Assembly: GCA_026986575.1 (NCBI GenBank)
Contig: JALSOH010000004.1
Span: 784,693 to 848,692 of the forward strand
DNA: 64,000 nt
Source: Thermoproteota archaeon
Lineage (GTDB): Archaea > Korarchaeota > Korarchaeia > Korarchaeales > Korarchaeaceae
Direction of reading: 5' to 3'
Part shown: positions 39,399 through 57,448 of the stretch, one piece after another
Position numbering within the stretch: the first letter of the stretch is position 1
How the letters are laid out: each line of letters starts with the position of its first letter
Program-made: the position numbers and the translations under genes
The notes under the pieces: model-generated
The model's input: only the letters and a program-made list of their open reading frames with translations
Databases searched by the model: none
What the model was told of the DNA's origin: nothing

Positions 39399-39740
39399 AT
39401 GAGGGTTCGGGAGGATCCAACCACTTCATTCGTGAGAGGGAGCTACCGTCTCCTCATCTTAGCGTTGCTAGAAAGCTCTGTAATGCACGGTTATCAGATT
39501 TTAAAGAATTTAGAAGGGCTGACGGGACAGAAACCAAAGATAAGCACCCTCTACTCTATACTGAAGGACATGGAGAGGAGCGGACTCCTCCGCTCGAGGG
39601 TGGAGGATGCTAGGAGGATATACCAGCTCACGGAGAGGGGAAGGCAGGTTTTGGATGAGTTCAGGTCTAAGCTGGGCGAGGGGGCGCTGAGGATACTGGA
39701 GTTCATAATGAGACCTAGGACCCTCTCGTCTAATCGTTAG
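39399..39740 (+). CDS. PadR-family transcription regulator
   Basis: 113 residues from ATG 39399 (GTG 39393 possible). SYRLLILALLESSVMHGYQILKNLEG, LYSILKDMERSGLLRSRV and YQLTERGRQVLDEFRSKLGE are the PadR winged helix and dimer helix. It ends at a palindrome 39737-39755 that lies before AAA ATPase 1, so it may regulate itself or that gene. Confidence 0.88.
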   Translation: MRVREDPTTSFVRGSYRLLILALLESSVMHGYQILKNLEGLTGQKPKISTLYSILKDMERSGLLRSRVEDARRIYQLTERGRQVLDEFRSKLGEGALRILEFIMRPRTLSSNR

Positions 39741-39791
39741 AAGCGTTACTTCTAATAATTTATATATTTATCAGAACAGCAACTTCTAATG
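39737..39791 (+). promoter_or_regulatory. Operator array of AAA ATPase 1
   Basis: TTAGAAG and CTTCTAA form a perfect 7-bp inverted repeat around CGTTA (39737-39755). A TATA box follows (ATTTATATATTTA, 39758-39770). A third half-site, CTTCTAA at 39783-39789, runs into the start codon ATG at 39789. The arrangement predicts strong self-repression at the start of transcription and translation. Confidence 0.6.
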
Positions 39792-40997
39792 AGTATGCTC
39801 GAGTGGCAGAACCCTTGGTGGGGGGGGAAGAAGAGCAAGGTAGTCCTTAAATGGGAGGAAAGAAAGTACAAGTGGGTCCCCTCGTGGTTAAACGAGATAT
39901 CTCTTGAGCCGTTCTCTCTCAACTTCGTGATGGGCCCCAGGCAGGTGGGAAAGACCACGGGCCTTCACCTTCTCATAGACAGGCTTATTAAGGGCGGGGT
40001 GGAGCCACAAAGGATATTCTTCCTCGATCTGGACCTCGTATGGGATCTGGATTCCTTCAAGAGGGCTCTGGACGACTACCTGAGGATGAGAGCTTATGAG
40101 GGTCACGACTCGTCCTACATAATCTTGGACGAGGTGACTAGCTTGGAAGGGTGGTGGAGGCTTGTCAAGGGCTACATTGACCTGGGGATCTTTGACAACG
40201 ATGTGCTGATTCTCACAGGATCCTCCTCCCTGAGGGTGAAGGGGAACGCAGAGCTCTTTCCTGGCAGGATGGGTAAGGGAGTCGAGGTGGAAGCTTTGCC
40301 CCTTTCCTTTCGGGAGTTCCTCCAAGTGAAGGGGATCGAGGTGAAGAGGACCGGGAATCTAGAGAAGGATATGGTCTCACTTCTTCCGGTTAGGGAGAGG
40401 GTTAGAGGACTGTTTCGAGAGTACATGAGATTCGGGGGATATCCCCTCTCCGTAAATGAAGATCCAGCGGCCGAGGAATCCTTCATAAGATCCGTCATCG
40501 GCGAGCTGCTGAGATTGGGGAGGAACCCCTCCCTGGCCTCGGCCGTAGTGGGATCCCTGCTCAGGAAGGCTCCCTCTCCCCTGTCTTACAGCTCCATAGG
40601 CTCAGATGTGGGAATATCATACAAGACCGTCAGGGACTACTTGGAGGTGCTTAAGGGATTGATGATGATTGGGGAAGCTCCATTCATGGAGTCGGGCTCG
40701 GTAAAATGGAGAAAGGAGAGGAAATATTTCATGAGAGATCCCTTCCTCGTAAGGTCCTTGGCTGGCTGGGTGGGAGTGGATCCCTTACCCAGTGCCATGC
40801 ACGAGTGGGTCGTGCAAGAGCACCTCCTCAGGAGGTTCGGAAGAGTCTATTACTGGAGAGACGGATATGAAGTTGACGCCGTTGCCAACGGGCTCAAGGT
40901 CGAGGTCAAGGCCGGAAAGCCCCACAGAAGATATCCTAGGGATGTCCTGATCTTAGATGAGGATAACATAGCCGACTTCCTAGCGGTAATCGTCTGA
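39789..40997 (+). CDS. Archaeal AAA ATPase 1 with C-terminal DUF4143/PD-(D/E)xK-like domain
   Basis: 402 residues. Walker A GPRQVGKTT (49-57), Walker B SYIILDEV, sensor-1 ILTGSSS, a winged helix (YSSIGSDVGISYKTVRDYLEVLKGL) and a C-terminal nuclease-like part where GYEVDAVANGLKVEVKAG has the D...ExK pattern. Proteins of this layout are common and poorly studied in archaea, perhaps a mobile or defence ATPase-nuclease. It carries its own palindromic operator; two relatives of the same architecture lie at 46.7 and 56.2 kb. Confidence 0.85.
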   Translation: MSMLEWQNPWWGGKKSKVVLKWEERKYKWVPSWLNEISLEPFSLNFVMGPRQVGKTTGLHLLIDRLIKGGVEPQRIFFLDLDLVWDLDSFKRALDDYLRMRAYEGHDSSYIILDEVTSLEGWWRLVKGYIDLGIFDNDVLILTGSSSLRVKGNAELFPGRMGKGVEVEALPLSFREFLQVKGIEVKRTGNLEKDMVSLLPVRERVRGLFREYMRFGGYPLSVNEDPAAEESFIRSVIGELLRLGRNPSLASAVVGSLLRKAPSPLSYSSIGSDVGISYKTVRDYLEVLKGLMMIGEAPFMESGSVKWRKERKYFMRDPFLVRSLAGWVGVDPLPSAMHEWVVQEHLLRRFGRVYYWRDGYEVDAVANGLKVEVKAGKPHRRYPRDVLILDEDNIADFLAVIV

Positions 40998-40999
40998 TC

Positions 41000-41710
41000 C
41001 TAAGGTCTTCTGGCCTTGATGGCCACAAAAGTTCCTAAGAGAGCCCTCTTCACCTTGATAATCTCGAACTTCTCCCCAATTATGCTGGTGAATTCGGAGG
41101 TCGTTAACATGCTTCTAAAGGTTGGGTAGAGAGCCTTCCATGGCGTATCAAAGCTCCCGTATATGGGTATGGAGATAAGGGGGACCAAAGTCCTGAGGTA
41201 GAGGCCCACCAGCCAAGCGAAAGCCCTGTTGTCCGGTCTGACTAGGTCCAAGACTAGGAGCTGGCCGCCCGGCTTGAGCACCCTCCTGAACTCACTTAAA
41301 GCTCCGTAAAGGTCCCTTGCATCCCTCAAAGCATAAGCTGTTACGATGACATCTACGGAGCTGTTGGGTAGAGGTACGGATTCGAAGGTGGCCTCCAAGA
41401 AGTTTAGCTCAACGTCGCCAGCGATGCCTCTCAGATTATCGAAGGCCGCCTTCAGCATCGACGGCAGCGGATCCAAGCAGTAGAGCTTACCCTCTCTCAT
41501 CCTCTTCAGTATGTGGACTGACATGTTCCCTGGTCCACAGCCAGCGTCCAGCACTGTCATGCCATCATCCAGCGCTGCCATGCCGGCGAGGACTTTCCTC
41601 ATCCTCTCGCTGTAACCTAGAGTGATCACCCTGTTCACAGCCTCGTACTTCCTGACCGTCCTGTCCAGAGCGCTGACTATCTCCTTCCAAGTGCCGTCCT
41701 CCAAGCCCAC
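41000..41710 (-). CDS. UbiE/MenG-like SAM-dependent methyltransferase
   Basis: 236 residues. VLDAGCGPGNMSVHIL is motif I, LYCLDPLPSMLKAA the acidic post-I strand, and VIVTAYALRDARDLYGALSEFRRVLKPGGQLLVLDL the UbiE family signature. It may methylate a quinone or a lipid. Convergent with AAA ATPase 1 (2 bases apart). Confidence 0.85.
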   Translation of the reverse strand: MGLEDGTWKEIVSALDRTVRKYEAVNRVITLGYSERMRKVLAGMAALDDGMTVLDAGCGPGNMSVHILKRMREGKLYCLDPLPSMLKAAFDNLRGIAGDVELNFLEATFESVPLPNSSVDVIVTAYALRDARDLYGALSEFRRVLKPGGQLLVLDLVRPDNRAFAWLVGLYLRTLVPLISIPIYGSFDTPWKALYPTFRSMLTTSEFTSIIGEKFEIIKVKRALLGTFVAIKARRP

Positions 41711-41790
41711 GCGCCGAGCTGCCTTGAAGAGGTTAAAAGGTTATCACTGAGGAGGCCTCAAGTTTTTCTCCTCTCCGCTCGCGATCCCGT

Positions 41791-42755
41791 ATGGAGCTGC
41801 TGTACCTCTCCTACCAAGATATATCTTCCTTGAGTATCCCCCTGTCCGATATAATAAGGGTCGTGGAGAATGCGTTCCGTCAGAAGGGAGAGGGTCTGGC
41901 TGAGATGCCCCCCAAGCCGGAATTCATCCTCGACCGGACTCATTTATTCATGCGATGCCGGCTTACCTCAAGGGTAGCGATGCTGCTGGCTTGAAGTGGG
42001 TATCTGGCTATCCGGAAAATCCCAAGAGGGGTCTCCCCTACATAACTGGCCTATTCATTCTCAATGACCCTAATACTGGGGTGCCGGTAGCCGTGATGGA
42101 TGCCATGTGGATAACCGCCTATAGAACGGCTGCAGCCACGGCCGTTGCAGCCAAGTACCTAGCTAGGGAGGATAGCGAGGTCCTAGCGGTGCTGGGTTGC
42201 GGGACTCAAGGTAAGACCAATACCTTGATGCTTAGGGAGTTGCTCCCCATAAAGACCGTCTGGGCATATGACATCGATCCGAAGGCCCTCGACAGGTATG
42301 AGGAGTTCGTTAAGGAGAGGATCGATGTGGAGATCATCAGGGCCTCCTCACCCAAGGAAGCGGTGGAGCACGCCGACATTATAGTTACAGCAGGCCCGAT
42401 CCTCAAGAACCCGAATCCAGTTATAGAGGCGGACTGGGTGAGGGAGGGTGCCACCGCTGTACCGCTGGACTTCGACTCCTACTGGAAATCCTCGGCCATA
42501 GCCTCGATGGACAAGTTCTACACGGATGATGTGGATCAACTGAAGTACTACATAGAAGAAGGATGGATTCGTCCCATAGAGAGGATAGATGGAGATTTGG
42601 GTGAGGTCGTTGCCGGGAAGAAGCCCGGCAGGGAGGGAGACCACGAGAGGATAATGTCCATGAATCTGGGGCTAGCTATAGAGGATGTCGCAACGGGGAA
42701 GCTAATCTACGATCTAGCCAAGAAAAAGAGAGTTGGGAGGAAGCTTCCCCTTTGA
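41791..42755 (+). pseudogene. Ornithine cyclodeaminase / mu-crystallin family gene, frameshifted
   Basis: From ATG 41791 the N-terminal YLSYQDISSLSIPLSDIIRVVENAF (lobe 1) reads to about 41945, where a one-base shift moves the family sequence to another frame (HAMPAYLKGSDAAGLKWVSGYP from about 41950). The rest is intact to 42755: AVMDAMWITAYRTAAATAVAAKYLA, the NAD loop VLAVLGCGTQGKTNT and the end LIYDLAKK. The full length, about 321 codons, is normal. It could be an ornithine cyclodeaminase, an alanine dehydrogenase or a 1-pyrroline reductase. A sequencing error would also explain one shift. Confidence 0.8.
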
Positions 42756-43237
42756 TGCTCGGGTTAGGGGTGCCCGTCGCTAGAGTGGTCTTAGGGGTGG
42801 AGGCCTCCACCTACGGGGAGGTAGGCCTCTGCCTTGACCTCTTCTTCTCCAAGTGGGCTTCCTCCCTCGACGAGTTCGTACCCCTCTTAATACCCGAGCA
42901 GAGGTTTATGGGGGCTGTAGATAGCTCTTACCTCGAGCTCGAACCTCTTGTATCTCCTGAAGAGTTCGTTGAGAGGTTTTCGATCGCATACAGGAGGTAT
43001 GCCGAGCGAGTGAACGATCTCAGGGAGAAGCTGCTTCAGGTAAGGAGATCCTATCGATTCAATCTCCTGATTCCTCCCTCGCCGTCGCAGCTTCATGCTG
43101 AGGACATACTAGTGAAGGAGATAGGGCTGATCGAGGGTTCCGTAAGGGGGGTTAATCTAATACTTGGACTTAACGAGTGGGATAAAATCGAGGAGGTGAG
43201 CTTGACAGCGTGGCAGGATAATTCGATGCTGGCTTGA
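42755..43237 (+). CDS. Hypothetical protein
   Basis: 160 residues from ATG 42755, overlapping the TGA of the preceding gene (TGATG junction), hence translationally coupled to the ornithine-cyclodeaminase-like gene. It is soluble, with LNDLREKLLQVRRSYRFNLL-type helices and a hydrophobic beta-rich start. I do not recognise it. After its stop, another frame (RIIRCWLDVFSPRGYFRFGE) reads on for about 40 codons, so its own 3' end may be shifted too. Confidence 0.5.
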   Translation: MLGLGVPVARVVLGVEASTYGEVGLCLDLFFSKWASSLDEFVPLLIPEQRFMGAVDSSYLELEPLVSPEEFVERFSIAYRRYAERVNDLREKLLQVRRSYRFNLLIPPSPSQLHAEDILVKEIGLIEGSVRGVNLILGLNEWDKIEEVSLTAWQDNSMLA

Positions 43238-43567
43238 CGTGTTCTCTCCGAGGGGTTACTTCAGGTTTGGGGAGAGGTCTAACCTCTTAGCTACGCTGAT
43301 AAGATCAAATCCCCAGCTACGAGATTTTCTATCGTCATTGACCAATGGATAGTGCTTCTCTATTGGAGAGAGTGGCTAAATTGGAGTTATTGATCCACAT
43401 ATCAGGCAGATTTCTACAACCACGCGCCTTAATTCGATAAGATACCAGCCCACGATACTTGGCCTATGACCTCGGGAAATTTGTTAGGACATGGTGGAAA
43501 ACCCGAAGCGCGGGATCCTAAATCAAATCCAATTCATGAAGTGCCATTAAGAACAAAAGCAACGATA
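43238..43567. other. 330-base intergenic stretch
   Basis: The first 120 bases can be read as a possible continuation of the preceding protein in another frame (GYFRFGERSNLLATLIRSNPQ, ending TAG). The rest has no ORF, RNA gene or repeat that I can support and is moderately AT-rich. It lies between genes on opposite strands. Confidence 0.35.
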
Positions 43568-44242
43568 TCACTTCTCAGTTAGCCTCCTATAGATCTTCCT
43601 ACCGGTATCATTTCTCACGTATCCGCTCTCCAGAGCTGGTATCACTAGATCTGGTCGATCTGTGGTAATGGCGTCCACGCCTATTTTAGCTAGGGCGAGG
43701 GCCTGCTCCGCATCGTTCACCGTCCACACGTATGTGAGGCCACCCACCTCCTTCATCTCGCTCAGAAGGGCCTCGTCCACATAGGAGAGCTCGACTGACA
43801 GCCCGTCAGCCATCGCGTCGGCCATGACCCTAGCGGGTCTGGCTGGCCTGTCCTGTATAGACGCCAGCATCAAGTAGTTGCCCTCTAGCTCCGGTCTGAG
43901 CTTCCTGAGGATGTTGTGGTATTTAGAGCTGATCGCGACACTCCCGTCCCCGGGCAGGGAGCTGAAGATCTTGGGATCCACCTCTGGGGTCTTGAGGTCT
44001 AAGACTAGGGAGACATCCCTCTCTACGACCTCCCTCACGATCCTGTCCAGCGATTCGCCCCTAGGTTCTGGGAAAAAGATCCTCCTCAACAGGGCCTCCC
44101 TCAAGGTAGCGGGCTTTATGCCAGCTACATGCCTGACCTCGCTCCCCGTTATGTCCACCTCTACCGCATCGACTCCCAGCTGTAGGTAGAGCCTGAGCTT
44201 GGTAAGGGTGTTCGCCCTATGTCCCACTATGAGCGGACGCAT
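43568..44242 (-). CDS. Glycerophosphodiester phosphodiesterase
   Basis: 224 residues from ATG 44242, which lies about 25 bases after a TTTAAATT box (44263-44270); the upstream ATG at 44257 would be too close to it. GHRANTLTKLRLYLQLGVDAVEVDI supplies the catalytic His, Arg, Glu and Asp, LVLDLKTPE the third metal ligand, and YVWTVNDAEQALALAKIGVDAITTDRPDL ends the TIM barrel. It hydrolyses glycerophosphodiesters of lipids. No signal peptide, so cytoplasmic. Confidence 0.88.
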   Translation of the reverse strand: MRPLIVGHRANTLTKLRLYLQLGVDAVEVDITGSEVRHVAGIKPATLREALLRRIFFPEPRGESLDRIVREVVERDVSLVLDLKTPEVDPKIFSSLPGDGSVAISSKYHNILRKLRPELEGNYLMLASIQDRPARPARVMADAMADGLSVELSYVDEALLSEMKEVGGLTYVWTVNDAEQALALAKIGVDAITTDRPDLVIPALESGYVRNDTGRKIYRRLTEK

Positions 44243-44327
44243 CCAAGGGGCGTGCATCCTAACAATTTAAACGTGCCTGAGCCAGCCAGAACTGGGCCGG
44301 GAAATCACATGGGAAGAGAAAAACTAT

Positions 44328-46103
44328 CTAACCTGATTCACGCAGTGTCTCCCTAGCGAGCCTCACTAGATTGACCATGACCAATAAGAGACCCCCGTCA
44401 TCTCCCAAGGCGACGGCTGCCCACAAGGGGATATACCCAATCACTCCAAGCAGGGCTGCTACAGCCTTGAAGGTACCCACAAAGGCCATATTCGACCAGA
44501 AGGTGGATACCACGGACCTGGAAGCCCTGAACAGCCATGGCAGTGACGAGATGCCTGACACAAGGGCCACATCGCCTGCCTCGATTGAGGCCTCCAAACT
44601 ACCAACGGCCACACCTAAATCGGCCGCAGCGAGGGCCGGGGCATCATTTATCCCGTCACCGACCATCGCGACATATCCGAACTCCTTCAGCCTCTTGACT
44701 ATCTCAACCTTCCCTTCTGGGGAGAGGTCCGCGTAGAGCTCGTGGATCCCCAAGCCCACGGCTACCGGTCTGGCGTTCTCCTCCCTGTCACCGGTGAGCA
44801 TGGCAACGCGGAGACCCATCTCCTTCAGTCGCCCGATCACCTCCTTAGCTAAGGGATTCACCTCGTCCCCAAGCGACACGTACCCGTGTCTCCCTCCAAC
44901 CGAGGCATGAACAACGACACCCCCGCTCGTAACCTCCTCAACCCCTACGAAGGACGCCTTTCCCGCGACCACCTCCGCCCCGTCTACTAACCCCCTTATC
45001 CCCTCACCCGGTACCTCTTCTACTTCCTCGGGTATCGAGAGCTTCAGACCCCTCCTCTTGGCTTCCTCCACAAGAGCTCTGGCCACGGGATGCTGCGAAG
45101 CCAGCTCTAGAGAAGCTAACAGCCTGAAGTCCTCTACATCCATGTGTAGCTCCCTCACCACCAGTCTCCCCAATGTGAGGGTACCGGTCTTGTCGATGGC
45201 TACGGCCCTTACCTTGGCAGCCATCTCTACAGGGGCGGATCCCTTGAACAGCACTCCTCTCCTCGCAGCCACAGCCAACGATGTGAGGGTCGTGGCCGGA
45301 GCGGCAACAAGGAAGGCACTCGGACAGGCGACGGCCACCAGAACTATGGATGCTCTCACTCCTAGGAGGGCCCATGCCAGCGCGGAGAGGGCGAGCATCG
45401 ACGGGAGGTAGTACTTGCTGAACCTCTGGACCAGCCTCTCTCCGGAGGACTTCCTTCCCTTGAACTCCTCCACCATGGCGAGTATGCGCGAGATGAATGC
45501 CTCCTTCCCAACCCTCAGGGCTCTTATGACTAGGCTTCCCTCGACTAGGAGGGAGCCGGAGTGGACGTAGCTGCCCATCTCCACCCTCACAGGGAGAGGT
45601 TCGCCGGTCACCACCGACTGATCCAAGTGCCCCTTACCTCTGACCACCAGCCCGTCCACGGGGACCCTCTCGCCCCTAGCCACCACCACTAGGTCCCCCT
45701 TCCTTATGGAATCGAATCCCACCTCCAAGAGGGAGCCGTCCCTCTCCACTTTGGCCTTCCTCGGGAGGTACTCCATCAACTCCTTCAACCCAGACTCAGC
45801 CCTCTCCATGGCCACATGCTCCAGTATCTCGGCCAGTCCGAACATTCCGAGGAGGAGGGTACCCTCAAGGTGGAGGTCTAGCCAGTAGGTTAGGCCACCA
45901 ACCCCGACCATCAGCAGGTTAATCACATGCTCTAGCTCCGCCTTCCTCTCGTGGAGCACCTCCCAAGCCGTGTAGGAGGAGATCATGACTATCAGTAAGA
46001 GGAGTAGAAGCGAATCCAAGCCCTCTATACCGGTTACGTGCAAGATCACTGATATCAGCGATGCGATCAGCACTGAAGCCCAGAAGAGATCCTCCAGCTC
46101 CAA
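44328..46103 (-). CDS. P1B-type heavy-metal ATPase (CPS motif, no N-terminal metal-binding domain)
   Basis: 591 residues. TGEP at 166-169, the transmembrane metal motif C260-P-S262, the phosphorylated Asp304 in DKTGTLT, the SQHP motif at 337-339 (P1B-specific) and MVGDGINDAPAL are all present. CPS differs from the usual CPC, SPC or CPH, so the metal cannot be assigned. No Cys-rich domain precedes the first helix. It should export a transition metal across the membrane. Divergent from a methyltransferase gene. Confidence 0.88.
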   Translation of the reverse strand: MELEDLFWASVLIASLISVILHVTGIEGLDSLLLLLLIVMISSYTAWEVLHERKAELEHVINLLMVGVGGLTYWLDLHLEGTLLLGMFGLAEILEHVAMERAESGLKELMEYLPRKAKVERDGSLLEVGFDSIRKGDLVVVARGERVPVDGLVVRGKGHLDQSVVTGEPLPVRVEMGSYVHSGSLLVEGSLVIRALRVGKEAFISRILAMVEEFKGRKSSGERLVQRFSKYYLPSMLALSALAWALLGVRASIVLVAVACPSAFLVAAPATTLTSLAVAARRGVLFKGSAPVEMAAKVRAVAIDKTGTLTLGRLVVRELHMDVEDFRLLASLELASQHPVARALVEEAKRRGLKLSIPEEVEEVPGEGIRGLVDGAEVVAGKASFVGVEEVTSGGVVVHASVGGRHGYVSLGDEVNPLAKEVIGRLKEMGLRVAMLTGDREENARPVAVGLGIHELYADLSPEGKVEIVKRLKEFGYVAMVGDGINDAPALAAADLGVAVGSLEASIEAGDVALVSGISSLPWLFRASRSVVSTFWSNMAFVGTFKAVAALLGVIGYIPLWAAVALGDDGGLLLVMVNLVRLARETLRESG

Positions 46104-46156
46104 GTTTCTCCCCTTGAGCTAGAGGGTCCCTTAAATAATATGCTCCCCCCACCTCA

Positions 46157-46654: not shown

Positions 46655-46673
46655 GCTGGCGATAAACCTAAAT

Positions 46674-46709
46674 ATGATAATATTAATTATCATAATGAGA
46701 ATTATCATG
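46674..46709 (+). promoter_or_regulatory. Operator array of AAA ATPase 2
   Basis: ATGATAAT and ATTATCAT form perfect 8-bp arms around ATTA (46674-46693). The half-site ATTATCAT recurs at 46701-46708 and its AT overlaps the ATG start codon at 46707. An AT-rich TATA-like segment (CTAAATATG, 46668-46676) overlaps the first arm. Same layout as at 39737-39791, with a different sequence. Confidence 0.6.
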
Positions 46710-48035
46710 TTTGTGGACAGGAAGGAGGAGCTGGAAGCCCTGAAAGAGAGGCTGGAATCTGACTCGTTCGAGTTCATAGTGGTGATGGGGAGGAGGAGAA
46801 TAGGGAAGACCCGTCTCATCTTGGAAGCTGTCAAGGGAAAGGATTACATCTATTATCTGGCGGTTGAGGGAGGTAACTTAAGGTACTTCAAGCTGACGGC
46901 ATCCCGCCTCGTTCCTCAGGCTAGGTACGCGATGGAGGATTGGGAATCTATATTCACTTTCCTGAAGGACAGGATAGTGGTTATAGACGAATTCCCTAAC
47001 ATGGTGAAGGAAGATCCTAGTGTCGTCTCGGTCTTCCAGAGGATAGTTGACTTACACCTGCGCGGTACTAGGACGAAGCTGATTCTGTGCGGTTCCTCAG
47101 TCTCCATGATGAAGGATAAGGTCCTCTCCTACAAGAGCCCATTGTACGGCAGGAGGACCTCCACCCTCAGGCTGGGTCCCCTGAGGTTCCCCGACCTCAA
47201 GGGATTCTTCCCCTCCTCAAGTTGGGAGGAGCTTGTAGAGATCTACGGCTTTGCTGACGGGGTCCCCTACTACCTGAGCAAGGTCAGGACACCCTTCTGG
47301 TCTTGGTTGGAGAGCGAGCTAAAGTCACCAGACACGTTCCTCAAGGAGGAGGTGGACTTCCTGCTTAAATACGAGTTCACCGAGCTATCCACCTACAGGA
47401 AGATACTGGAGGCCATAGCCCACGGGAAGAACACTCCCAAGGAGATAAGGGACTATACAGGGTTGAGTCACTCGGACCTAACTCCCTACCTGAGAAACCT
47501 GATGGATGTGGAGCTCGTGGTCAGGGAGGTCCCGGTCACCGACAGGTGGAACTCCAAGAGGGGACGCTACTACTTAGCGGACAACTTCCTCACCTTCTGG
47601 TTCAGGTTCGTGGCGCCAAACCTCTCCCTCATAGAGGAGGGACTTCTAGACGTGGAAACTGTGAGAGCGAGTTACCCGCAGTATTTAGGAATTATCTTCG
47701 AGAAGGTGGCGAGGGAGGTCGTGATAAGCCTCATCAGAAGTGGGAGACTCGGCATGAGGGTTACAAGGCTCGGCAGGTGGTGGGGGAGAGGTGAGGAGAT
47801 AGATCTGGTGTTGGTAGACGATGAGAAGAGAAAGGCGCTACTCATGGAGGCCAAGTGGTCTGATTTAAGCGCTAAGGATGTGAGAAGGGTTGTCAGGGAG
47901 CTGATGCGCAAGGGACAGCTCCTATTAGAGGGATACGATAAGGAATACCTGATTGTAGCTAGGAGGGCCGAGGAAGTTGAGGGGGTAAGGGTACTGGACC
48001 TCAGATCGTTCGGTGAGGTCTTCGGAGGAGCTTGA
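46707..48035 (+). CDS. Archaeal AAA ATPase 2 with DUF234-type C-terminal domain
   Basis: 442 residues from ATG 46707 (longer start 46674 unlikely, as it lies in the operator). Starts MFVDRKEELEAL as such ATPases usually do, Walker A GRRRIGKTR (28-36), Walker B IVVIDEFP, sensor ILCGSS, then a winged helix (GKNTPKEIRDYTGLSHSDLTPYL) and a nuclease-like end in which GEEIDLVLVDDEKRKALLMEAKW carries the D...ExK pattern. Partner unknown. Carries its own private palindrome; see AAA ATPases 1 and 3. Confidence 0.86.
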   Translation: MFVDRKEELEALKERLESDSFEFIVVMGRRRIGKTRLILEAVKGKDYIYYLAVEGGNLRYFKLTASRLVPQARYAMEDWESIFTFLKDRIVVIDEFPNMVKEDPSVVSVFQRIVDLHLRGTRTKLILCGSSVSMMKDKVLSYKSPLYGRRTSTLRLGPLRFPDLKGFFPSSSWEELVEIYGFADGVPYYLSKVRTPFWSWLESELKSPDTFLKEEVDFLLKYEFTELSTYRKILEAIAHGKNTPKEIRDYTGLSHSDLTPYLRNLMDVELVVREVPVTDRWNSKRGRYYLADNFLTFWFRFVAPNLSLIEEGLLDVETVRASYPQYLGIIFEKVAREVVISLIRSGRLGMRVTRLGRWWGRGEEIDLVLVDDEKRKALLMEAKWSDLSAKDVRRVVRELMRKGQLLLEGYDKEYLIVARRAEEVEGVRVLDLRSFGEVFGGA

Positions 48036-48055
48036 TTAATTCCCCCGTGGGATTG

Positions 48056-49495: not shown

Positions 49496-49803
49496 CCCGG
49501 CCTAGGAGAGGGTGTCTTTAAAGTACTTGACTCTTGCAGAGGCCCGCGCAAATGAACTGACGGAGGTAGGTCCCAGATCTGAAGTAGTTCCTCCGGAGAG
49601 AGAATCCAGAAGGGCTAAAACTGGCCCAACTTGAGCCTGCTAAGTAGTTTCCAGCTGGACAGACAAGGCACAGCACATTATAACTGCCCGAGCTCCCATG
49701 ACTGTTGAGTACTTTGAGGCGTAATGGCTCTAAAACCTTCGGAACTTTTTTAGCTGTGTCATGTGTCCGATAACTCTTAAATATGATCCCGGCGATCCTT
49801 TAA
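49496..49803. other. 308-base stretch without a recognisable gene
   Basis: Holds the promoter of the flavoprotein gene on its left side and an AT-rich box (CTTAAATATG, 49785-49795) before the acylphosphatase relic on its right. I see no other ORF, RNA gene or repeat. Confidence 0.35.
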
Positions 49804-50123: not shown

Positions 50124-50270
50124 TGGTCTCTAATAACATTCCTAATTAACTCGTAAGCTAATAGCAAAAGCCCGGAATAACTCTTGGCTACCTTCAGGCT
50201 TCTATCTTCCCAGCCGGTCATCGACAGCTCGCTTTAAAACCCCCGTCGATTGGGATCTCTCGGGATTTCT

Positions 50271-51185
50271 ATGAGGTATGAGCAGTTGGGGAGGACAGGT
50301 ATAAAGGTCTCCAAAATAGGACTGGGGACATGGCAGTTCGGCGCCAGCTATTGGGGTTGGGGGAAGGAAATAGGTGAAGAGGAGGCCATCTCCATAATAA
50401 GGAGGGCCTTGGAACTCGGAATCAACTTCATAGATACTGCGGAGATATACGGATGGGGGAGGTCCGAGAGGGTAATAGGGAAGGCGCTGAGCCGGTTGGA
50501 CAGGGAGGAAGTGGTGATAGCCACCAAGGTCTTTCCCTACAGGGTCACCGTCTCAGGAGTACTGAAGGCGCTGAGAAACAGTCTGAGGAGGCTGAACACC
50601 AGTTACGTGGACTTATACCAGATCCACTGGCCCAGCCCCATATTCCCCCTGAAGGGGGCGATGAGGGCGCTGGAGAGGGAGCTGGAAGAGGGGAGGATAA
50701 GGGCCATAGGGGTGAGCAACTTCTCCTTAAAGCAGATGGAGGAGGCCAGGAGCTACCTCCAGAGGCACGACCTAGCCAGTGACCAGATCGAGTACAATCT
50801 CCTCAAGAGGGATCCAGAGAGAGATCTAATCCCTCATTGCCAGAGGGAAGGTATCACGATAATAGCGTATAGCCCTCTAGCACAGGGACTGCTTACCGGG
50901 AAGTACGGGCCGGGGAGGATGCCTAAGGGACTGCAGAGGAGGCTGAACATATGGCACCTTTACGGGAGGATCGATTGGTCGGTGGTTGAGAGGCTGAAGG
51001 AACTAGCGGACAGGAAGGGAGGAGAACCGAGTCCTGCCCAGCTCGCTCTGGCGTGGGTGATAAGAGATGAGGGAGTGGACGCAATCCCCGGGGCTAAGAG
51101 CCTGGATCAACTCAGGAGCAATGCTAAAGCTGCGGAGATAGAACTTAGTGATGAAGACATCTCCTTCCTTGAAGTTCCCGAATGA
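50271..51185 (+). CDS. Aldo-keto reductase
   Basis: 304 residues from ATG 50271 (seven codons shorter than the longest frame). MRYEQLGRTGIKVSKIGLGTWQFG, the catalytic NFIDTAEIYGWGRSE (Asp, Tyr), ATKVFP (Lys), VDLYQIHWP (His) and GVSNFSLKQME are intact, with the NADPH site IPGAKSLDQL near the end. A TATA-like box at 50232-50240 lies 30 bases upstream. Substrate unknown. Confidence 0.9.
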   Translation: MRYEQLGRTGIKVSKIGLGTWQFGASYWGWGKEIGEEEAISIIRRALELGINFIDTAEIYGWGRSERVIGKALSRLDREEVVIATKVFPYRVTVSGVLKALRNSLRRLNTSYVDLYQIHWPSPIFPLKGAMRALERELEEGRIRAIGVSNFSLKQMEEARSYLQRHDLASDQIEYNLLKRDPERDLIPHCQREGITIIAYSPLAQGLLTGKYGPGRMPKGLQRRLNIWHLYGRIDWSVVERLKELADRKGGEPSPAQLALAWVIRDEGVDAIPGAKSLDQLRSNAKAAEIELSDEDISFLEVPE

Positions 51186-51361
51186 CCCTTCCGTGACGAT
51201 CGATCCAAACGCAACTGCAATCTGACATCGATCTGTGGGTACGATGACTTGCATGAGAAGTTCCCGATGACTCGAGAGCCATCTTGTCCATCAGCTCGTC
51301 TTCACCTTCATCGCGCCCACTCAGGAGGGGATCTTTATTACTCTCCCTCCCCGTAGGGCAT

Positions 51362-52036
51362 GTGGATAGATCCTACATATACTACCCGCTCGCCATGATG
51401 CTGATAATGCTCCTCTTCCTCTTCCTACTCCCCATAATGCTCCTGCTCTTCTTGGGCATGGTGGGGAGGGCCTTCACCAAGATAGGTTTGGCTCCTTGGC
51501 AGACATGGATTCTCCTTCTCTCCACTCTGGTAGGCAGTGCGGTGAACATCCCTGTGTGGGAGAAGAGGACTTACGAGGTCGTGGACGAAGTCGAAGTACT
51601 TTTCCTCAGGGTGAAACTCCCTCCAGTCAGGATAGAGAGGAGAATCGTGATAGCGGTTAACTTGGGAGGGGCGCTCATCCCCACTGCATTCTCCCTCTTC
51701 CTCCTATCTAAGATTGGTCTCAGGCCGGGGATCATAGCCTCGCTGGCCATCGTGACTCTTGTTAGTTATGCCTTCAGCAGGCCAGTCAGAGGTGTGGGCA
51801 TTGTGATGCCCTTTTACATGGCCCCGATAACAGCAGCTCTCTCCTCACTGATACTAGCTCCCCAATATACTGGGGTCAGCGCCTACGTGTCAGGGACTCT
51901 CGGAACCCTGATAGGGGCTGATCTGCTCAGACTTAGGGAAGTGGAGAAGATAGGCAGCGGCCTAGTGAGCATAGGTGGAGCAGGTGTGTTCGACGGCATA
52001 TTCCTCTCTGGGGTGCTGGCTGTCCTCCTCAGTTGA
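51362..52036 (+). CDS. DUF1614 membrane protein
   Basis: 224 residues from GTG 51362, chosen because a CTTTATTA box sits about 28 bases upstream (51327-51334) and the longer frame from 51284 adds a polar, unlikely N-terminus. Six or more helices; GADLLRLREVEKIGSGLVSIGGAGVFDGIFLSG is the DUF1614 signature at the C-terminus. Function unknown. Confidence 0.82.
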   Translation: MDRSYIYYPLAMMLIMLLFLFLLPIMLLLFLGMVGRAFTKIGLAPWQTWILLLSTLVGSAVNIPVWEKRTYEVVDEVEVLFLRVKLPPVRIERRIVIAVNLGGALIPTAFSLFLLSKIGLRPGIIASLAIVTLVSYAFSRPVRGVGIVMPFYMAPITAALSSLILAPQYTGVSAYVSGTLGTLIGADLLRLREVEKIGSGLVSIGGAGVFDGIFLSGVLAVLLS

Positions 52037-52148
52037 CGACCTCGCATCATACGATGCGCTCCAAAAACGTTGTTCTGGGGGAGTGCAAACGGTTAACGCT
52101 AAAGTGTTAAAAAGTAGAAAGTTGTGGGGGTTAATGCTCTTAGTCAGA

Positions 52149-52781
52149 TCATCCCCCTAAGCTGAGCTCTCCAGATCCCTTGGCTACATTGTGCTTCTTC
52201 GTGAACATGTCCTCATCCGCCATGGCGAAGATGAACGCGATCTTGGTCCTTAGCTTCAGGTCCTTGTCGTACTTATCACCCGTTGATAACTTTCTCTTGA
52301 ACTCTATAGTGGTCACACCGCTCTTCTCCGATCCTCCATAAGATAGGATGTCGTTCCTGCCTCCCAGCTTCTCATCCGGTGGATGGGGTCCTGTTTCTCC
52401 TGTGGAATAGGCATCAATGACCGTAGCCTTGCCGTCCTTCACCCATCCTATCACCATGTCCGCGTCTTTCATCCTCTTCGTTGGCTCAAATCCTATCGCA
52501 ACCCATCCCTTGGTCTTTCCTACCAAGGCCATGTAGAGGTACTCTCCGTCAGTTTTCCAGTAGACCTTGAATCTTCCCTCCGCCAGTTCCAGTTCTTGAT
52601 CATACTCTCCCTTTGACACAACCCCATCGGGCTTCCACACCACTTCCTCCTTGATAGCTGTCTGTTTGGAAGTCACAGGCACAATAGGAGTTTTCTGGGC
52701 TGACTTCAACGTCATATAGAGCAGGACCGCGATGAGGATTACAAGAACGGCGATCACTCCTAGCAGAACTGACTTGTTCAT
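52149..52781 (-). CDS. Membrane-anchored DOMON-domain protein
   Basis: 210 residues. One N-terminal helix (VLLGVIAVLVILIAVLLYMTL) anchors it, followed by a DOMON sandwich (VSKGEYDQELELAEGRFKVYWKTDGEYLYMALVGKTKGWVAIGFEP). The heme-ligand Met is plausibly in the KRMKDADMVIGWV loop and GPHPPDEKLGGRND is a typical turn. DOMON domains bind heme or sugars outside the cell. A role in extracellular electron transfer would be a guess. Confidence 0.8.
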   Translation of the reverse strand: MNKSVLLGVIAVLVILIAVLLYMTLKSAQKTPIVPVTSKQTAIKEEVVWKPDGVVSKGEYDQELELAEGRFKVYWKTDGEYLYMALVGKTKGWVAIGFEPTKRMKDADMVIGWVKDGKATVIDAYSTGETGPHPPDEKLGGRNDILSYGGSEKSGVTTIEFKRKLSTGDKYDKDLKLRTKIAFIFAMADEDMFTKKHNVAKGSGELSLGG

Positions 52782-52977
52782 ATGGAGCTTGGAGTCTCAG
52801 AGTGATAAATGTGAGACCAAATTTACCCCCTAATCATGCACAAATTTATCATGAATTAGTAAAAAATTCCGAGAGATGTCAATAGTACCAATCTAAATTA
52901 ACGTTTTTATGAGTGACGTTTGGGATACCGTATGTCAAGGGATTTAAGGTTCACAGCACCACCTCCTGAGGTAGTAA

Positions 52978-53259
52978 ATGGAGACCTTGAGGCTCAGGAA
53001 GATACTCGTATGGTTGTTGAACGGTTCGAGAGGAGGGCCCACAAGGCTGAAAATATTGAAAGCTCTCAAAGAAAGACCCATGAACCCGAATCAACTCGCA
53101 AAAGCACTCGACCTGAACTACAAGACTGTGATACACCACTTAACGGTACTGGAAAGGCATGGTCTGATCGTGAGACTGGGGAGCGGCTACGGCGTTCCCT
53201 ACTTTCTCTCCGACGTATTGGAGAGGAACTGGGAGATTGTACAATCCCTCACTGGGTGA
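52978..53259 (+). CDS. ArsR-type winged-helix regulator
   Basis: 93 residues from ATG 52978 with GAGGTAG upstream. GGPTRLKILKALKERPMNPNQLAKALDLNYKTVIHHLTVLERHGLI is the whole HTH-wing unit. Its stop lies 5 bases before a small membrane-protein gene, an operon layout typical of regulator-plus-membrane-partner pairs. It may bind the AT-rich 200-base region 52782-52977 between it and the DOMON gene. Confidence 0.85.
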   Translation: METLRLRKILVWLLNGSRGGPTRLKILKALKERPMNPNQLAKALDLNYKTVIHHLTVLERHGLIVRLGSGYGVPYFLSDVLERNWEIVQSLTG

Positions 53260-53263
53260 TTCA

Positions 53264-53545
53264 ATGATCGGCATTTACTGGATCTTCAACTTGGTTCTTG
53301 TCTTCGTGGAGGCAGTCTTCTTGACACTCACCCTCAGAAACTACTCCCTCCTCCGGAATACTACCGTGGGCAAGCTTCTAGTGGCAGTATCAGCTATATT
53401 CCTAGTCCAATCGATATCGATGTTCGTGTCCTTCCTCATATGGGCGGAAATGGGATACACAGTCAATGTGGCGGGACCGCTCCTAATGATCTCGGGATTG
53501 GGCGCGTTGGGATCGGCCATTCTTTACCGAATCTCCAGCATGTAA
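53264..53545 (+). CDS. Small three-helix membrane protein
   Basis: 93 residues from ATG 53264. Three hydrophobic helices (IYWIFNLVLVFVEAVFLTLTL; LLVAVSAIFLVQSISMFVSFLIW; PLLMISGLGALGSAILYRI). It follows the ArsR-like gene by 4 bases. Such ArsR-membrane pairs are frequent in archaea; function unknown. An AGTAGAA-TAC-TTCTACT hairpin starts immediately after its stop. Confidence 0.65.
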   Translation: MIGIYWIFNLVLVFVEAVFLTLTLRNYSLLRNTTVGKLLVAVSAIFLVQSISMFVSFLIWAEMGYTVNVAGPLLMISGLGALGSAILYRISSM

Positions 53546-53546
53546 G

Positions 53547-53563
53547 TAGAATACTTCTACTCC
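53547..53563 (+). terminator. Hairpin after the ArsR-membrane operon
   Basis: AGTAGAA and TTCTACT form 7-bp arms around TAC directly behind the stop codon. No T run follows, so it could equally be an operator or an mRNA-stability element. Confidence 0.3.
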
Positions 53564-53868
53564 AAACCAGTTTCGGATCTATACGCCTGTCCTTTTCCTA
53601 TTTACTCCGAGACAGGAATGCTCAGCGTATTGATACCCTCCCTGATAACCTATGGCTTTTTCCCACGTTACTAACTAGGGATTCAAATAGTTCCCCAGAC
53701 TCGGACTTGTTTACGATTGCCGCTTCCGTTTACCTTAACGACTTATCCTGTTCTCACAATCACTCCCCACGCGGAGGAGGTTGATAATATGGCTAATAGG
53801 TACTCCCCGCCTCAGGTGAATTATGCTCACTGAAACCTTAAAGATCTTATCAATTAACCGTCAACTCG
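53564..53868. other. 305-base intergenic stretch
   Basis: No ORF, RNA gene or repeat that I can support. It is moderately AT-rich and ends in the promoter region of the methyltransferase-like membrane gene (ACCTTAAAGATC near 53830). Confidence 0.35.
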
Positions 53869-54372
53869 GTGATCACAGTGGAGAAGGTGAAGAAGAGACT
53901 CTTCATTTGGCTGTTCGTAATATTAGCCTCATTGGTACTGGGATACGCACTGGACTCCATATATGGTCTGATTTTACCCCCGTGGGCGAGGGTCCTCGGG
54001 CTACTAGGTATGATGGTGGCGGCGCTGATCTTGAGGACCTCGGGCAGGATGCTCAGGAAGTTTGGAAAGCCGGAGGAGTGGGGATGGACCACGAAGCTCG
54101 TTACACACGGCATATACTCCTGCGTCAGGCACCCTCATCATTTCGGCATCGGACTCTTCGTGACCTCCTTGGGCCTAATCCTCAGCGGCCTGTTCACATT
54201 CCTCTTGCTCACTTTCACCATCTGGGTGAGCGTGATCCTCTTTCTGATAAGGGTGGAGGAGCCAGAGGCCATGGAGAAGTTCGGGGAGGAGTACGAGGAT
54301 TACAGGAGAAGAGTACCCATGATCCTGCCTAATCCCCTATGCCTGCTGAGAGAGATCTTAAAGCCAATATGA
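53869..54372 (+). CDS. Isoprenylcysteine methyltransferase (ICMT/PEMT)-like membrane protein
   Basis: 167 residues from GTG 53869. Four helices and the family signature THGIYSCVRHPHHFGIGLF with, at the C-terminus, EEPEAMEKFGEEYEDYRRRVPMILP. These membrane enzymes methylate a lipid or a prenyl group with SAM. Substrate unknown. Confidence 0.85.
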   Translation: MITVEKVKKRLFIWLFVILASLVLGYALDSIYGLILPPWARVLGLLGMMVAALILRTSGRMLRKFGKPEEWGWTTKLVTHGIYSCVRHPHHFGIGLFVTSLGLILSGLFTFLLLTFTIWVSVILFLIRVEEPEAMEKFGEEYEDYRRRVPMILPNPLCLLREILKPI

Positions 54373-54458
54373 TCGCACCTCCTCGCCTCACGGTTTTCGG
54401 GGCGGCCGCTGATTCGGGATCTTAATAAGCCACTCCTGATCACAATTTCTGAGGAGCC

Positions 54459-55169
54459 ATGAAGTACCAGATCTTAGGGGATAATCTCCAAGTCCTCGTT
54501 ATAGAACTGTCTCCCGGTGAGAGGATATACGCCGAGGCCGGGGCCCTCAACCACATGTCGGGCAACATCAAGATGGATGTGAAGGCCCGCGGCGGGTTCA
54601 TGGCCAGCCTGAAGAGGGCCATAGCTGGAGAAACATTCTTCGTAACGGAGTTCTCCGCCGAAGGAGGGCCAGGAGTCGTGTCCTTCGCTGGCACAGCCCC
54701 TGGTAAGATAGCGGTGCTGGAACTGGATGGCACTAAGGAGTACCTTATCCAGAGGGGCGGCTTTTTGGCAGCTGAGGACGGGGTGGAGGTCACCGCCGGT
54801 ATGGCTAGGAAGCTGGGAGCTGCTCTCTTCGGTGGGGAGGGGCTCATAATGGAGAGGGTGCGAGGTGTGGGGAAGGTGTTCATCCACGCGGCCGGGGACT
54901 TCATAGAGTACGATCTGAAGCCAGATCAGGTCCTTAAAGTGGACACCGGGCACTTGGTGGCCTTGGAGGACTCGGTGGACTTCGACATAGAGAGGGTCGG
55001 CGGTGTGAAGTCCATACTGTTCAGTGGGGAGGGCCTCTTCTTCGCGGTGCTGAGGGGCCCGGGCAGGGTGATACTCCAGTCTCTGAACATATCTGCCCTA
55101 GCTAAGGAGATAGCGAGGCACATACCCCAATCTGGGAATAGGGGATTCACTATAACACTGGGTGATTGA
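54459..55169 (+). CDS. AIM24/TIGR00266 family protein
   Basis: 236 residues. YAEAGALNHMSGNIKMD at the start, GPGVVSFAGTAPGKIAVLELD in the middle and GGVKSILFSGEGLFFAVLRGPGRVILQS late are the family's repeating beta-helix-like signatures. Function in bacteria and archaea is unknown; the yeast relative is mitochondrial. Its last bases overlap the next membrane-protein gene (GTG 55162), so the two are an operon. Confidence 0.88.
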   Translation: MKYQILGDNLQVLVIELSPGERIYAEAGALNHMSGNIKMDVKARGGFMASLKRAIAGETFFVTEFSAEGGPGVVSFAGTAPGKIAVLELDGTKEYLIQRGGFLAAEDGVEVTAGMARKLGAALFGGEGLIMERVRGVGKVFIHAAGDFIEYDLKPDQVLKVDTGHLVALEDSVDFDIERVGGVKSILFSGEGLFFAVLRGPGRVILQSLNISALAKEIARHIPQSGNRGFTITLGD

Positions 55170-55470
55170 TTTGAGAGGGAGGGACGTTGCGGCTCTCCTG
55201 CTCCTCACCCTAATAGGGCTGCTGGCTGGAGGTATAGTGTTCTGGCTGATCCTCAAATATCTCCCGTTAATCGCTGCCCTCATACTGGCCATCCTCGTTG
55301 CCTTAATAATGTTAGGTGTACTCGTCTCAGTGGTAGGCTTCTTCTCCGCTGCGGTGGGGGCCCTCTACTACGCGGTTGTGAAGAGACCAAGTACGGGCGG
55401 GAGGCCGGTTACCTTGAGGGATGCCAAGAAGCTGGACAAGGAGGAAGGGAAGTTCGAGGAGGCCGAGTGA
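55162..55470 (+). CDS. Small two-helix membrane protein
   Basis: 102 residues from GTG 55162 (TTG 55171 possible). Two long helices (VAALLLLTLIGLLAGGIVFWLILKYL; LIAALILAILVALIMLGVLVSVVGF) followed by a charged tail. Operon partner of the AIM24-like protein; probably its membrane anchor. Confidence 0.6.
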   Translation: MIDLRGRDVAALLLLTLIGLLAGGIVFWLILKYLPLIAALILAILVALIMLGVLVSVVGFFSAAVGALYYAVVKRPSTGGRPVTLRDAKKLDKEEGKFEEAE

Positions 55471-55471
55471 A

Positions 55472-55870
55472 TTGAGCCATAGGGAGTCAGAGAGCCTGAA
55501 GAGGAGGCAGGGCGTTCCTAGAGCTAGCTGAGTACAGCCTATCCAGAGGCTTCCACGACATGGCTGTGTTTCACGCCCATCAGGCCATCGAGTATTCGTC
55601 AAGGGGGTACTGCTTGAGGTGGTGGGCACATACCCGAGGACTCACGATCTGATGGAGCTCTTGGGTGACTGGCTCTCCGAGAAGTGCGATCTCATATCTA
55701 AACTCTTGAATGAGAGGGGTGAGAAGATAGAGCATCTCACAGATGCCTACTTCAGCTCTAGGTACGGTGAAAGGAACTTCAGGCGCGAGCTAGCCATCTC
55801 ATTTGTCGAACTGGCTCGGGAGGTGATTAGAGTTGCGAGCCTATGTGAGGAAGAGGATAGAGAGAGCTGA
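55472..55870 (+). pseudogene. HEPN-domain gene with two frameshifts
   Basis: TTG 55472 opens MSHRESESLKRR; an extra base at the GGCAGGGCG stretch (about 55509-55516) shifts the true frame, AFLELAEYSLSRGFHDMAVFHAHQAIEY, and a missing T near 55594-55600 moves the rest back into FVKGVLLEVVGTYPRTHDLMELLG. The joined protein is a good HEPN domain ending at 55870. The canonical RxxxxH is in SSRYGERNFRRE or nearby and uncertain. It overlaps or abuts the intact MNT gene. Confidence 0.72.
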
Positions 55871-56186
55871 AATGGTAAAGAGGTGGAGGGAGCACGTGAG
55901 AGAGATCGCCCGATCAGCGAGGAGAGTCTTGGGAGATGTGGAGATATACGTGTTCGGTAGCGCTGTGGAAGAGAGGCTCACCGCCTCTTCCGACGTCGAT
56001 CTGCTCATTGTGTGCGAGAAAGCCCCTAGGGACTTTGAGGAGTACGAGGATCTCAAGGAGAGGATACTGAGGGGAGCTGGCTTGGAAACTAGGTCTCCCT
56101 TCCAGCTGCACATAGTGGACAGGGACGGAGCTAGGTTCTACTTGGAGAACCTCATGGTGAGGGCTGAGAGGGTCCCTCATCCTTAG
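55833..56186 (+). CDS. MNT-type minimal nucleotidyltransferase
   Basis: 117 residues from TTG 55833, or 104 from ATG 55872 directly after the HEPN stop. The catalytic motif is canonical: VFGSAVEERLTASSDVDLLIV (G-S then D-x-D). QLHIVDRDGARFYLENL follows. As antitoxin it would AMPylate or bind the HEPN toxin, whose gene upstream is broken. Its last 35 bases overlap, tail to tail, AAA ATPase 3. Confidence 0.85.
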   Translation: MRAYVRKRIERAEMVKRWREHVREIARSARRVLGDVEIYVFGSAVEERLTASSDVDLLIVCEKAPRDFEEYEDLKERILRGAGLETRSPFQLHIVDRDGARFYLENLMVRAERVPHP

Positions 56187-57399
56187 GAGTAGACCTGATC
56201 CTTTCCGCTAGGGAAACGAGATCATCCGGGCCTAGAGACTCGTCTCCTATGTCAGGCGGCCTCTCAGTCAAGCTGACAAGGTCTGTGTAGGGTATACCAA
56301 GTTCCCTCATCCTCATCACTGATTTCTCAGCCTCTTTCTCAGGTATCGGTCCCAGCTTGATCTCGTATCCAGCTATGACTCTCTTTCTCCTCAGGAGGAT
56401 TGCATCCACATCGCCCTCGGGCGACACGTGGTAGGCTAGCCTCGCCCCCTCCCGCCTGGCCAGCATCTCCCCCACCGAAAGCTGGATCTCCCTACCCAAG
56501 ACGCTCCTGATCGCATCCTCCTCAGGCGGGTAACCGTCGTTCACCCCGAACTTGGCCTCCATGTAGTAGAGGACTGACAACAGGGGAGATCTGTGCCGGT
56601 AAAGGTATTTGGTCCTTCCACTCTTCCACAGAGGTATCTTAGTCGCTAATCCCATGGATTCAAGCCTCGAGAGGATTCCGGTGACTGCGGCAATCCCTCC
56701 AGACAGTAATCCCCTGGAGCTTAGGATTCCCGCCATTTCCTTGGCGCTCCAGACCCCCTCCCCCATTAGGAGGAGGATCGAGTCGTAGAGGGATGTGAGT
56801 ACCCTCTCCTCCTCGCTGAAGACTTCACCCACAAGTCCTTGAGCGGACATGAAGAGCCCGAATGATCTATCCACCAAGAAGCGGACCGGGTCCTCTAGGT
56901 TAGCGAGCGGTATCACCCAAGGGTCCCTCATGAGAGCGGCCCACACGAAGCCCTCCCTATCCTTCGGCCTGAGATTCGCCAGCATGTCCGAGTAGGATAT
57001 TATGTCGAGTCTTAAGGGTTCAACAAGCCCCAGAAGGGGGTTTCTCCTGTCGAACACCTTCCTCACTATCCCCGAGCTAGATCCCGCTAGGTAGAGTCTT
57101 CCGCTCGGGTGTATCTCGGCTAGTCTCTCCCAATGCACATCATCGAGCCTCTGAAACTCGTCTATCACGGCCTTTCCATCAGAGGAGAGGGTCTCCACGA
57201 CGAGGCGGATCGCTTCCTCTATGGTCCTCAGTTCCCCGTCCACAAGCGCAGCCCTTGATCTTGTGATCGTCACGTAAGCATCCCATCTCGTGAGACGACG
57301 TAGCAGGAAGGATTTGCCTACCTTCCTCCTGCCGTAGAGGAGGAGCCAGCCCTTCCTCCTCTTTATCTCCTCGCCTTCCCACCTATCTATCACTAACAA
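56152..57399 (-). CDS. Archaeal AAA ATPase 3 with PD-(D/E)xK-like end
   Basis: About 415 residues from TTG 57399 (GTG 57393 also in frame). Walker A YGRRKVGKSF, Walker B AVIDEFQRLDD, sensor LAGSSSG, a winged helix (SAKEMAGILSSRGLLSGGIAAVTGILSRLESMGL) and a nuclease-like end with GDVDAILLRRKRVIAGYEIKLG. Its relatives start MFVxR; here an out-of-frame ATG at 57403 reads MFVSDR-stop, so the true start may be lost to a one-base shift. The operator array precedes it. Lies 50 bases downstream of elp3. Confidence 0.82.
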   Translation of the reverse strand: MLVIDRWEGEEIKRRKGWLLLYGRRKVGKSFLLRRLTRWDAYVTITRSRAALVDGELRTIEEAIRLVVETLSSDGKAVIDEFQRLDDVHWERLAEIHPSGRLYLAGSSSGIVRKVFDRRNPLLGLVEPLRLDIISYSDMLANLRPKDREGFVWAALMRDPWVIPLANLEDPVRFLVDRSFGLFMSAQGLVGEVFSEEERVLTSLYDSILLLMGEGVWSAKEMAGILSSRGLLSGGIAAVTGILSRLESMGLATKIPLWKSGRTKYLYRHRSPLLSVLYYMEAKFGVNDGYPPEEDAIRSVLGREIQLSVGEMLARREGARLAYHVSPEGDVDAILLRRKRVIAGYEIKLGPIPEKEAEKSVMRMRELGIPYTDLVSLTERPPDIGDESLGPDDLVSLAERIRSTPKDEGPSQPSP

Positions 57400-57403
57400 A
57401 CAT

Positions 57404-57437
57404 AATATTCCTAATAGAATATTCCCACAAGAATATA
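57404..57437 (-). promoter_or_regulatory. Operator array of AAA ATPase 3
   Basis: On the plus strand AATATTC (57404-57410), six bases, GAATATTC (57417-57424), six bases and GAATATA (57431-57437) follow at even 13-14-base steps, forming two back-to-back inverted repeats. The first half-site abuts the ATG at 57403, and a TATA box (ATTTATA on the minus strand, 57434-57440) overlaps the last. Same logic as at AAA ATPases 1 and 2. Confidence 0.58.
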
Positions 57438-57448
57438 AATTGTTCGAA

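Follow-up and report, generated by a model that had tools for sequence, protein, structure and literature searches.

Three genes in a 64,000-nucleotide stretch of DNA from a Thermoproteota archaeon of the Korarchaeaceae (assembly GCA_026986575.1, contig JALSOH010000004.1, positions 784,693 to 848,692 of the forward strand; the window in what follows) each carry two tandem palindromes (dyads) of their own sequence at the promoter. We consider it quite probable that each of the encoded proteins, here called g1, g2 and g3 after their genes and predicted to be ATPase-nucleases, represses its own gene by placing its own winged helix on these two dyads. A sequence-only reading of the window had proposed that each ATPase reads its own operator and is thereby self-regulated, and comparison with related genes strongly supports that proposal. 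Two of the genes belong to classes, PDC-S01 and PDC-S27 (S01 and S27 below), that PADLOC lists as 'phage defence candidate' (PDC) single-gene systems (PMC12988326). The genes and their putative operators are the following, in positions of the window (n5, a spacer of five nucleotides; bp, base pairs):

39789 to 40997, plus strand: g1, an AAA_14 ATPase with a predicted internal winged helix and a DUF4143/PD-(D/E)xK-type end (402 amino acids, PDC-S01 class)
46707 to 48035, plus strand: g2, an ATPase_2 protein with an internal winged helix (modelled) and a DUF234/PD-(D/E)xK-type end (442 amino acids, PDC-S27 class)
56152 to 57399, minus strand: g3, a diverged AAA_14 ATPase with a PD-(D/E)xK-type end, opening at TTG 57399
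39737 to 39755, plus strand: g1 operator, dyad 1, TTAGAAG-n5-CTTCTAA, upstream of the TATA box
39759 to 39769, plus strand: putative TATA box of g1, TTTATATATTT, read from the sequence, about 26 bp upstream of the ATG
39771 to 39789, plus strand: g1 operator, dyad 2, TCAGAAC-n5-CTTCTAA, with a degraded left arm; its last base is the A of the ATG
46674 to 46693, plus strand: g2 operator, dyad 1, ATGATAAT-ATTA-ATTATCAT (n4 spacer)
46692 to 46706, plus strand: g2 operator, dyad 2, ATAAT-GAGA-ATTATC, abutting the ATG at 46707 and 15 bp from dyad 1
57419 to 57436, minus strand: g3 operator, dyad 1, ATATTC-n6-GAATAT, 14 bp upstream of dyad 2
57405 to 57422, minus strand: g3 operator, dyad 2, ATATTC-n6-GAATAT, nearest to the start

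The sequence-only reading had described at each promoter a perfect inverted repeat of the gene's own sequence, followed by one further half-site at the start codon. Perfect dyads do stand at all three places (TTAGAAG-n5-CTTCTAA at g1, ATGATAAT-n4-ATTATCAT at g2 and ATATTC-n6-GAATAT at g3), and the start-codon half-site is present as well, but as the right arm of a second tandem dyad rather than as a lone half-site. At g1, the CTTCTAATG that follows dyad 1 is the right arm of dyad 2 at the start codon; the TATA box stands between the two dyads, whose offset is 34 bp, and the G014 orthologue has an intact dyad 2 (ATTAGAAGTAATACTTCTAATG). The position of this TATA box above the ATG, if it functions as such, implies a leaderless g1 transcript. 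At g3, the two dyads have the middle arm GAATATTC in common. The ATG that had been read after GAATATT at g3 does adjoin the operator (57403 to 57401, minus strand), but it is out of frame (MFVSDR*) and is not the start of g3, whose frame begins at TTG 57399; in relatives of g3 the same operator-adjacent ATG is in frame. The coding start of g3 is 4 nucleotides longer than in the relatives L270 and L272, so that TTG 57399 may be its true start, or recent damage may have altered the gene. In the G015 copy of g3 (L271), an in-frame TAG lies close to the start and the third half-site is missing.

Taken alone, each of these sites is modest. A two-dyad statistic, compared with dinucleotide shuffles, gave p values per site of 0.03 for g1, 0.004 for g2 and 0.0075 for g3, the last of which reached significance by this statistic only (single-repeat statistic, p = 0.52). 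As a family, the sites are anything but modest. Within the archaeon's own genome, scanned over about 1.66 of its 1.91 Mb, 10 of the 14 scored family members reached the repeat score that was reached by 4.2% of 1548 control genes (Fisher p = 3e-11), and the Cdc6- and RFC-type AAA genes scored there had ordinary repeat scores (6-7). Among relatives of the S27 class, the mean inverted-repeat z was 2.2 in archaea (0.4 in controls, p = 6e-6) and 5.3 in bacteria (0.75 in controls, p = 6e-15), and S01 relatives showed a repeat excess of 3.4 (0.27 in controls, p = 9e-7). In this archaeon, almost every ATPase_2/DUF234 and AAA_14/DUF4143 gene has a repeated dyad of its own at the core promoter, and so do most of their relatives elsewhere among the archaea and in bacteria. 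The layout that had been noticed at three genes recurs in paralogues and in relatives from two domains of life, more widely than was claimed.

The unit that recurs is a pair of tandem dyads at a spacing fixed for each subfamily. Autocorrelation of the upstream regions in the S27 (g2) class gave a single dominant peak at exactly 15 bp, with z values of 15.8 in 67 archaeal genes and 15.3 in 52 bacterial genes that were analysed separately; in the g3 class the peak lies at 14 bp (z 7.7), and in the g1 class, where the TATA box separates the two dyads, at 34 bp (z 6.9). These z values are measured against shuffles and not against phylogeny, and they are to be read with caution because related genes may share inherited operators. 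Two DUF234 genes that lie within 1.4 kb of each other (L251 and L255, G055:C1:1459246-1462929) entered the analysis as one, the second being left out.

In the clear cases, archaeal tandem units occupy a median of -27 to 0 relative to the start, and a TATA-like box begins some 7 nucleotides before the unit. Bacterial units occupy a median of -53 to -26, often with a TATAAT-like sequence between the dyads, which places them about 25-50 bp upstream of the start and around the -10 element. At Methanocaldococcus jannaschii MJ_RS08955, 14 bp separate the end of the operator from the annotated start downstream. These positions suggest that the operator is tied to the core promoter and the transcription start site rather than to the start codon. 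The earlier description of a start-codon-embedded operator thus fits many archaeal starts, which the operator overlaps because leaders there are short or absent, but does not hold as a rule of position. In the related paralogues L254 and L259, an additional outer pair of arms (AGTTCAC...GTGAACT) lengthens the dyad until it reaches into the first codons, and the N-terminus of the protein would thereby be constrained by its own operator. The overlap with the start codon in many archaeal members could also mean that the repeats act in RNA, as hairpins that mask the start codon. We disfavour this explanation and give it a negligible probability: dyad 1 of g1 stands above the TATA box, the bacterial copies overlap the promoter and would be largely untranscribed, the tandem copies are kept as direct repeats at fixed spacing, and the half-sites follow the recognition helix of the protein. 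A dyad operator that overlaps its own promoter is, by its position, what would be expected of autoregulated winged-helix repressors.

All three proteins end in predicted PD-(D/E)xK nuclease-type motifs. The g1 protein matches Pfam AAA_14 (8.4e-23) and DUF4143 (9.9e-13), the two domains required for PDC-S01, as well as the PADLOC model PDC-S01 itself (5.3e-36); g2 matches ATPase_2 (2.9e-29) and DUF234 (3.1e-26), the two domains required for PDC-S27, and the model PDC-S27 (1.7e-42). The match of g3 to AAA_14 (1.2e-6) is barely above the cut-off, DUF4143 was not found in it, and its match to PDC-S01 (2.4e-6) is weak and partial. A search of NCBIfam returned no family. The putative nuclease motif reads EVD...EVK in g1 (EVDAVANGLKVEVKAG), with E361, D363, E372 and K374 invariant in the class, EEID...MEAK in g2, with E363, E380 and K382 invariant among 24 aligned g2-class proteins, and DVD...EIK in g3 (DVDAILLRRKRVIAGYEIK), which has orthologues in relatives. 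The architecture that had been ascribed to all three is therefore borne out by Pfam for the ATPase, and for the winged helix it is confirmed in the structural model of g2 and predicted in g3 from sequence and in g1 from sequence together with co-variation. In the AlphaFold2 model of g2 (mean predicted local distance difference test, pLDDT, 94), the winged helix sits between ATPase and nuclease and consists of helices 226-237, 243-250 and 254-266 and strands 270-273 and 286-289; residues 254-266 (LSHSDLTPYLRNLMD) would be the recognition helix. That of g1 was placed by alignment and co-variation at about SYKTVRDYLEV, from residue 277 on. By sequence and fold, the closest solved structures to g2 are PABY2304 and SSO1545, and Foldseek returned NLR, CED-4, ORC and STAND chains at E values of about 1e-8, with template modelling (TM) scores of only about 0.3-0.46.

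The operators are private in the archaeon's genome, and their letters follow the recognition helix. Of the operator patterns that gave a score in the own genome, each matched solely at its own promoter, and dyad 1 of g1 occurs only once in the scanned 1.66 Mb or so even when one mismatch is allowed. A shared regulon was rejected on these scans, which gave no second copies elsewhere for the patterns that scored. We compared operator similarity with protein identity in 17-residue windows along 118 S27 (DUF234)-class proteins, and the window that tracked the operator best was residues 249-269, that is, the recognition helix 254-266. The association of operator similarity with helix identity persisted when the rest of the protein was allowed for (partial Mantel test, permutation p = 0.001, n = 118), and pairs with a helix identity of at least 0.65 shared the operator in 88% of cases at a mean identity elsewhere of 0.50. 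For the 18 proteins of the g1 class, which form a separate set, the top four of 130 windows cover residues 268-289, again the recognition helix. Here, helices of the type SYKTV go with TTAGAA (or TTAGAG) and those of the types SHRTV and SHVTV with TTGATA: L297, L312 and L313 (SHRTV) are 58% identical to g1 yet have the other operator, whereas L300 and L301 (SYKTV) are only 51-53% identical and have the same one. The half-site thus appears to be predicted better by helix type than by overall relatedness. The test proposed earlier, that the palindrome should co-vary with winged-helix residues among homologues, came out as predicted in both the g2 and the g1 class. MJ_RS08955 of M. jannaschii, found afterwards, bore out a fresh prediction: the protein is 57% identical to g2 and has the same helix (KHSDLTPYLKNL), its dyad is ATGATAAT-TTCA-ATTATCAT, and 35 of 40 operator bases are identical to those of g2 (score 30; the best of 2000 shuffles reached 21). 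On these comparative grounds, the recognition helix is likely to determine the operator.

Each set of dyads might instead be the operator of a separate regulator, unlinked or neighbouring, and for g1 a neighbouring gene offers itself:

39393 to 39740, plus strand: PadR-family regulator upstream of g1 (Pfam PadR, 6.9e-16), with its stop codon inside dyad 1 of g1

This gene ends inside the operator and is kept with g1 in the closest relatives. However, the g1 homologue in G001 (65% identical) retains g1-type half-sites with no PadR match in the 1452 bp upstream, so PadR is not needed for the half-sites to persist, and we rejected it as the regulator of g1. Wherever sufficient upstream DNA was available at the remaining g1-class loci, the dyads are likewise present and PadR is absent. 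If each paralogue had a separate private regulator, that regulator would, moreover, have to change in step with the ATPase's own recognition helix, and we regard separate regulators as unlikely. Archaeal Orc1/Cdc6 genes can adjoin their own origin recognition box (ORB) repeats, and ORC/Cdc6 proteins are among the closest folds to the g2 model; the repeats could accordingly be sites of DNA processing or replication, either targets of the nuclease itself or initiator sites like ORBs or iterons. This seems very unlikely, given that the sites lie only at the core promoter, to which they are tied in two domains of life, and that each is found at its own gene only in the portion of the genome scanned.

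Several observations weigh against autorepression through the recognition helix. Secondary co-variation peaks lie at residues 101-117 and 161-177, and the co-variation statistics carry no correction for phylogeny. When only the archaeal genes are considered, the partial correlation is higher for the rest of the protein (0.19) than for the helix (0.13). About 40% of S27-class genes do not rise above the 95th percentile of the null in the 15-bp tandem score, and at Halorubrum L321 no repeat is visible by eye. Operators at promoters, finally, are typical of repression, yet activation is also possible: the ATPase might bind its sites as an activator or as a switch of nucleotide state in the fashion of MalT and other STAND proteins. 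The g2 model bears some resemblance to ORC/Cdc6 and NLR/STAND ATPases, and mycobacterial IniR, which has an SSO1545-like ATPase domain, activates transcription (PMC5760070). The sites nevertheless lie over the transcription start site or the start in archaea and around the -10 element in bacteria, positions that normally block initiation, and we hold activation or switching to be a minority possibility, if a more serious one than the other alternatives.

Other features of the window and genome lie outside this argument. Genes for a HEPN protein and a nucleotidyltransferase (MNT) stand in tandem at 55619 to 56186 (plus strand) and are likely a HEPN-MNT toxin-antitoxin pair; the MNT gene converges on g3 and shares 35 bp with its 3' end. 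A PIN-domain protein at 59612 to 60079 (minus strand) is possibly a VapC-type toxin. Non-family genes, the top-scoring controls, have strong start-site dyads too: ATCCTATATAGG...CCTATATAGGAT for a small protein whose end is AbrB-like, and ACCTACTACAT-ATGTAGTAGGT for an ABC transporter ATPase (G000:C4, minus strand, and G000:C9:66365).

Under autorepression, a single chain of ATPase, winged helix and PD-(D/E)xK-type domain would bind its own core promoter directly. The protein subfamily would set the geometry (14, 15 or 34 bp) and the recognition helix the letters, which would give each paralogue a private operator. The dyad pair would be occupied below or around the TATA box and over the transcription start in archaea, and around the -10 element in bacteria, and two dimers would presumably bind cooperatively as set by the fixed spacing. 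The nucleotide state or a trigger, presumably infection in the case of candidate defence genes, would then release the protein from the DNA, and this release would both derepress the gene and free the nuclease for its putative target. The defence role itself is a database prediction, taken from the candidate classes PDC-S01 and PDC-S27. That all this amounts to a general design, in which self-repressing ATPase-nuclease candidate defence genes of archaea and bacteria share a strict two-dyad geometry and a helix-to-operator code, paralogues form mutually blind switches, and release couples sensing, induction and nuclease activation, we put forward tentatively and at slightly less than even chances.

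The abundance of these families makes the question one of high interest: a single survey detected about 40,000 copies of PDC-S01, the fourth commonest system in prokaryotes in that survey, and about 8,000 of PDC-S27 (PMC12988326). An operator that is private to one gene and read by that gene's own protein would imply specific DNA binding, give the place of binding and allow its sequence to be predicted from the helix. Private operators would also explain how a dozen or more paralogues can exist in one genome without cross-talk, and they offer reporters for screening the trigger.

Winged-helix autorepression is an established type of regulation, and the protein families already have names; the regulatory layer on the PDC-S01 and PDC-S27 families appears to be new. 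In the open-access literature we found no description of these operators, of their fixed spacing or of a helix code, in agreement with the novelty suspected by the sequence-only reading, and no established mechanism for PDC-S01 or PDC-S27. Like g1 and g2, these systems are ATPases fused to a PD-(D/E)xK-superfamily domain; the main text of the paper that describes them mentions no palindrome, winged helix or autoregulation, and states that for most PDCs, whose classes are based on prediction, validation is pending (PMC12988326). IniR of mycobacteria resembles g2 as a regulator with a related SSO1545-like ATPase domain that controls transcription, but it has a MalT-like domain and a separate C-terminal helix-turn-helix, activates other genes and lacks a nuclease (PMC5760070). 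The archaeal AAA+ ATPases SSO1545 (2FNA) and PABY2304 (2QEN) combine an ATPase with a winged helix, as g2 does, and differ in being about 350 residues long, apparently without a nuclease end. Nuclease-less SSO1545-like ATPases of the archaeon's own genome (L004-L006; G000:C4 near 576.0 kb and 736.2 kb, and G000:C9 near 190.7 kb) have near-perfect tandem repeats at their starts, with a period of 18-19 bp in two of them, and the first two are alike in operator and in protein. The BrxR/CapW regulators and the C proteins of restriction systems are of the winged-helix or helix-turn-helix type and, bound to palindromes at defence promoters, keep expression low. In those systems the regulator is a separate gene, whereas here the predicted reader of the operator lies inside the effector ATPase-nuclease itself.

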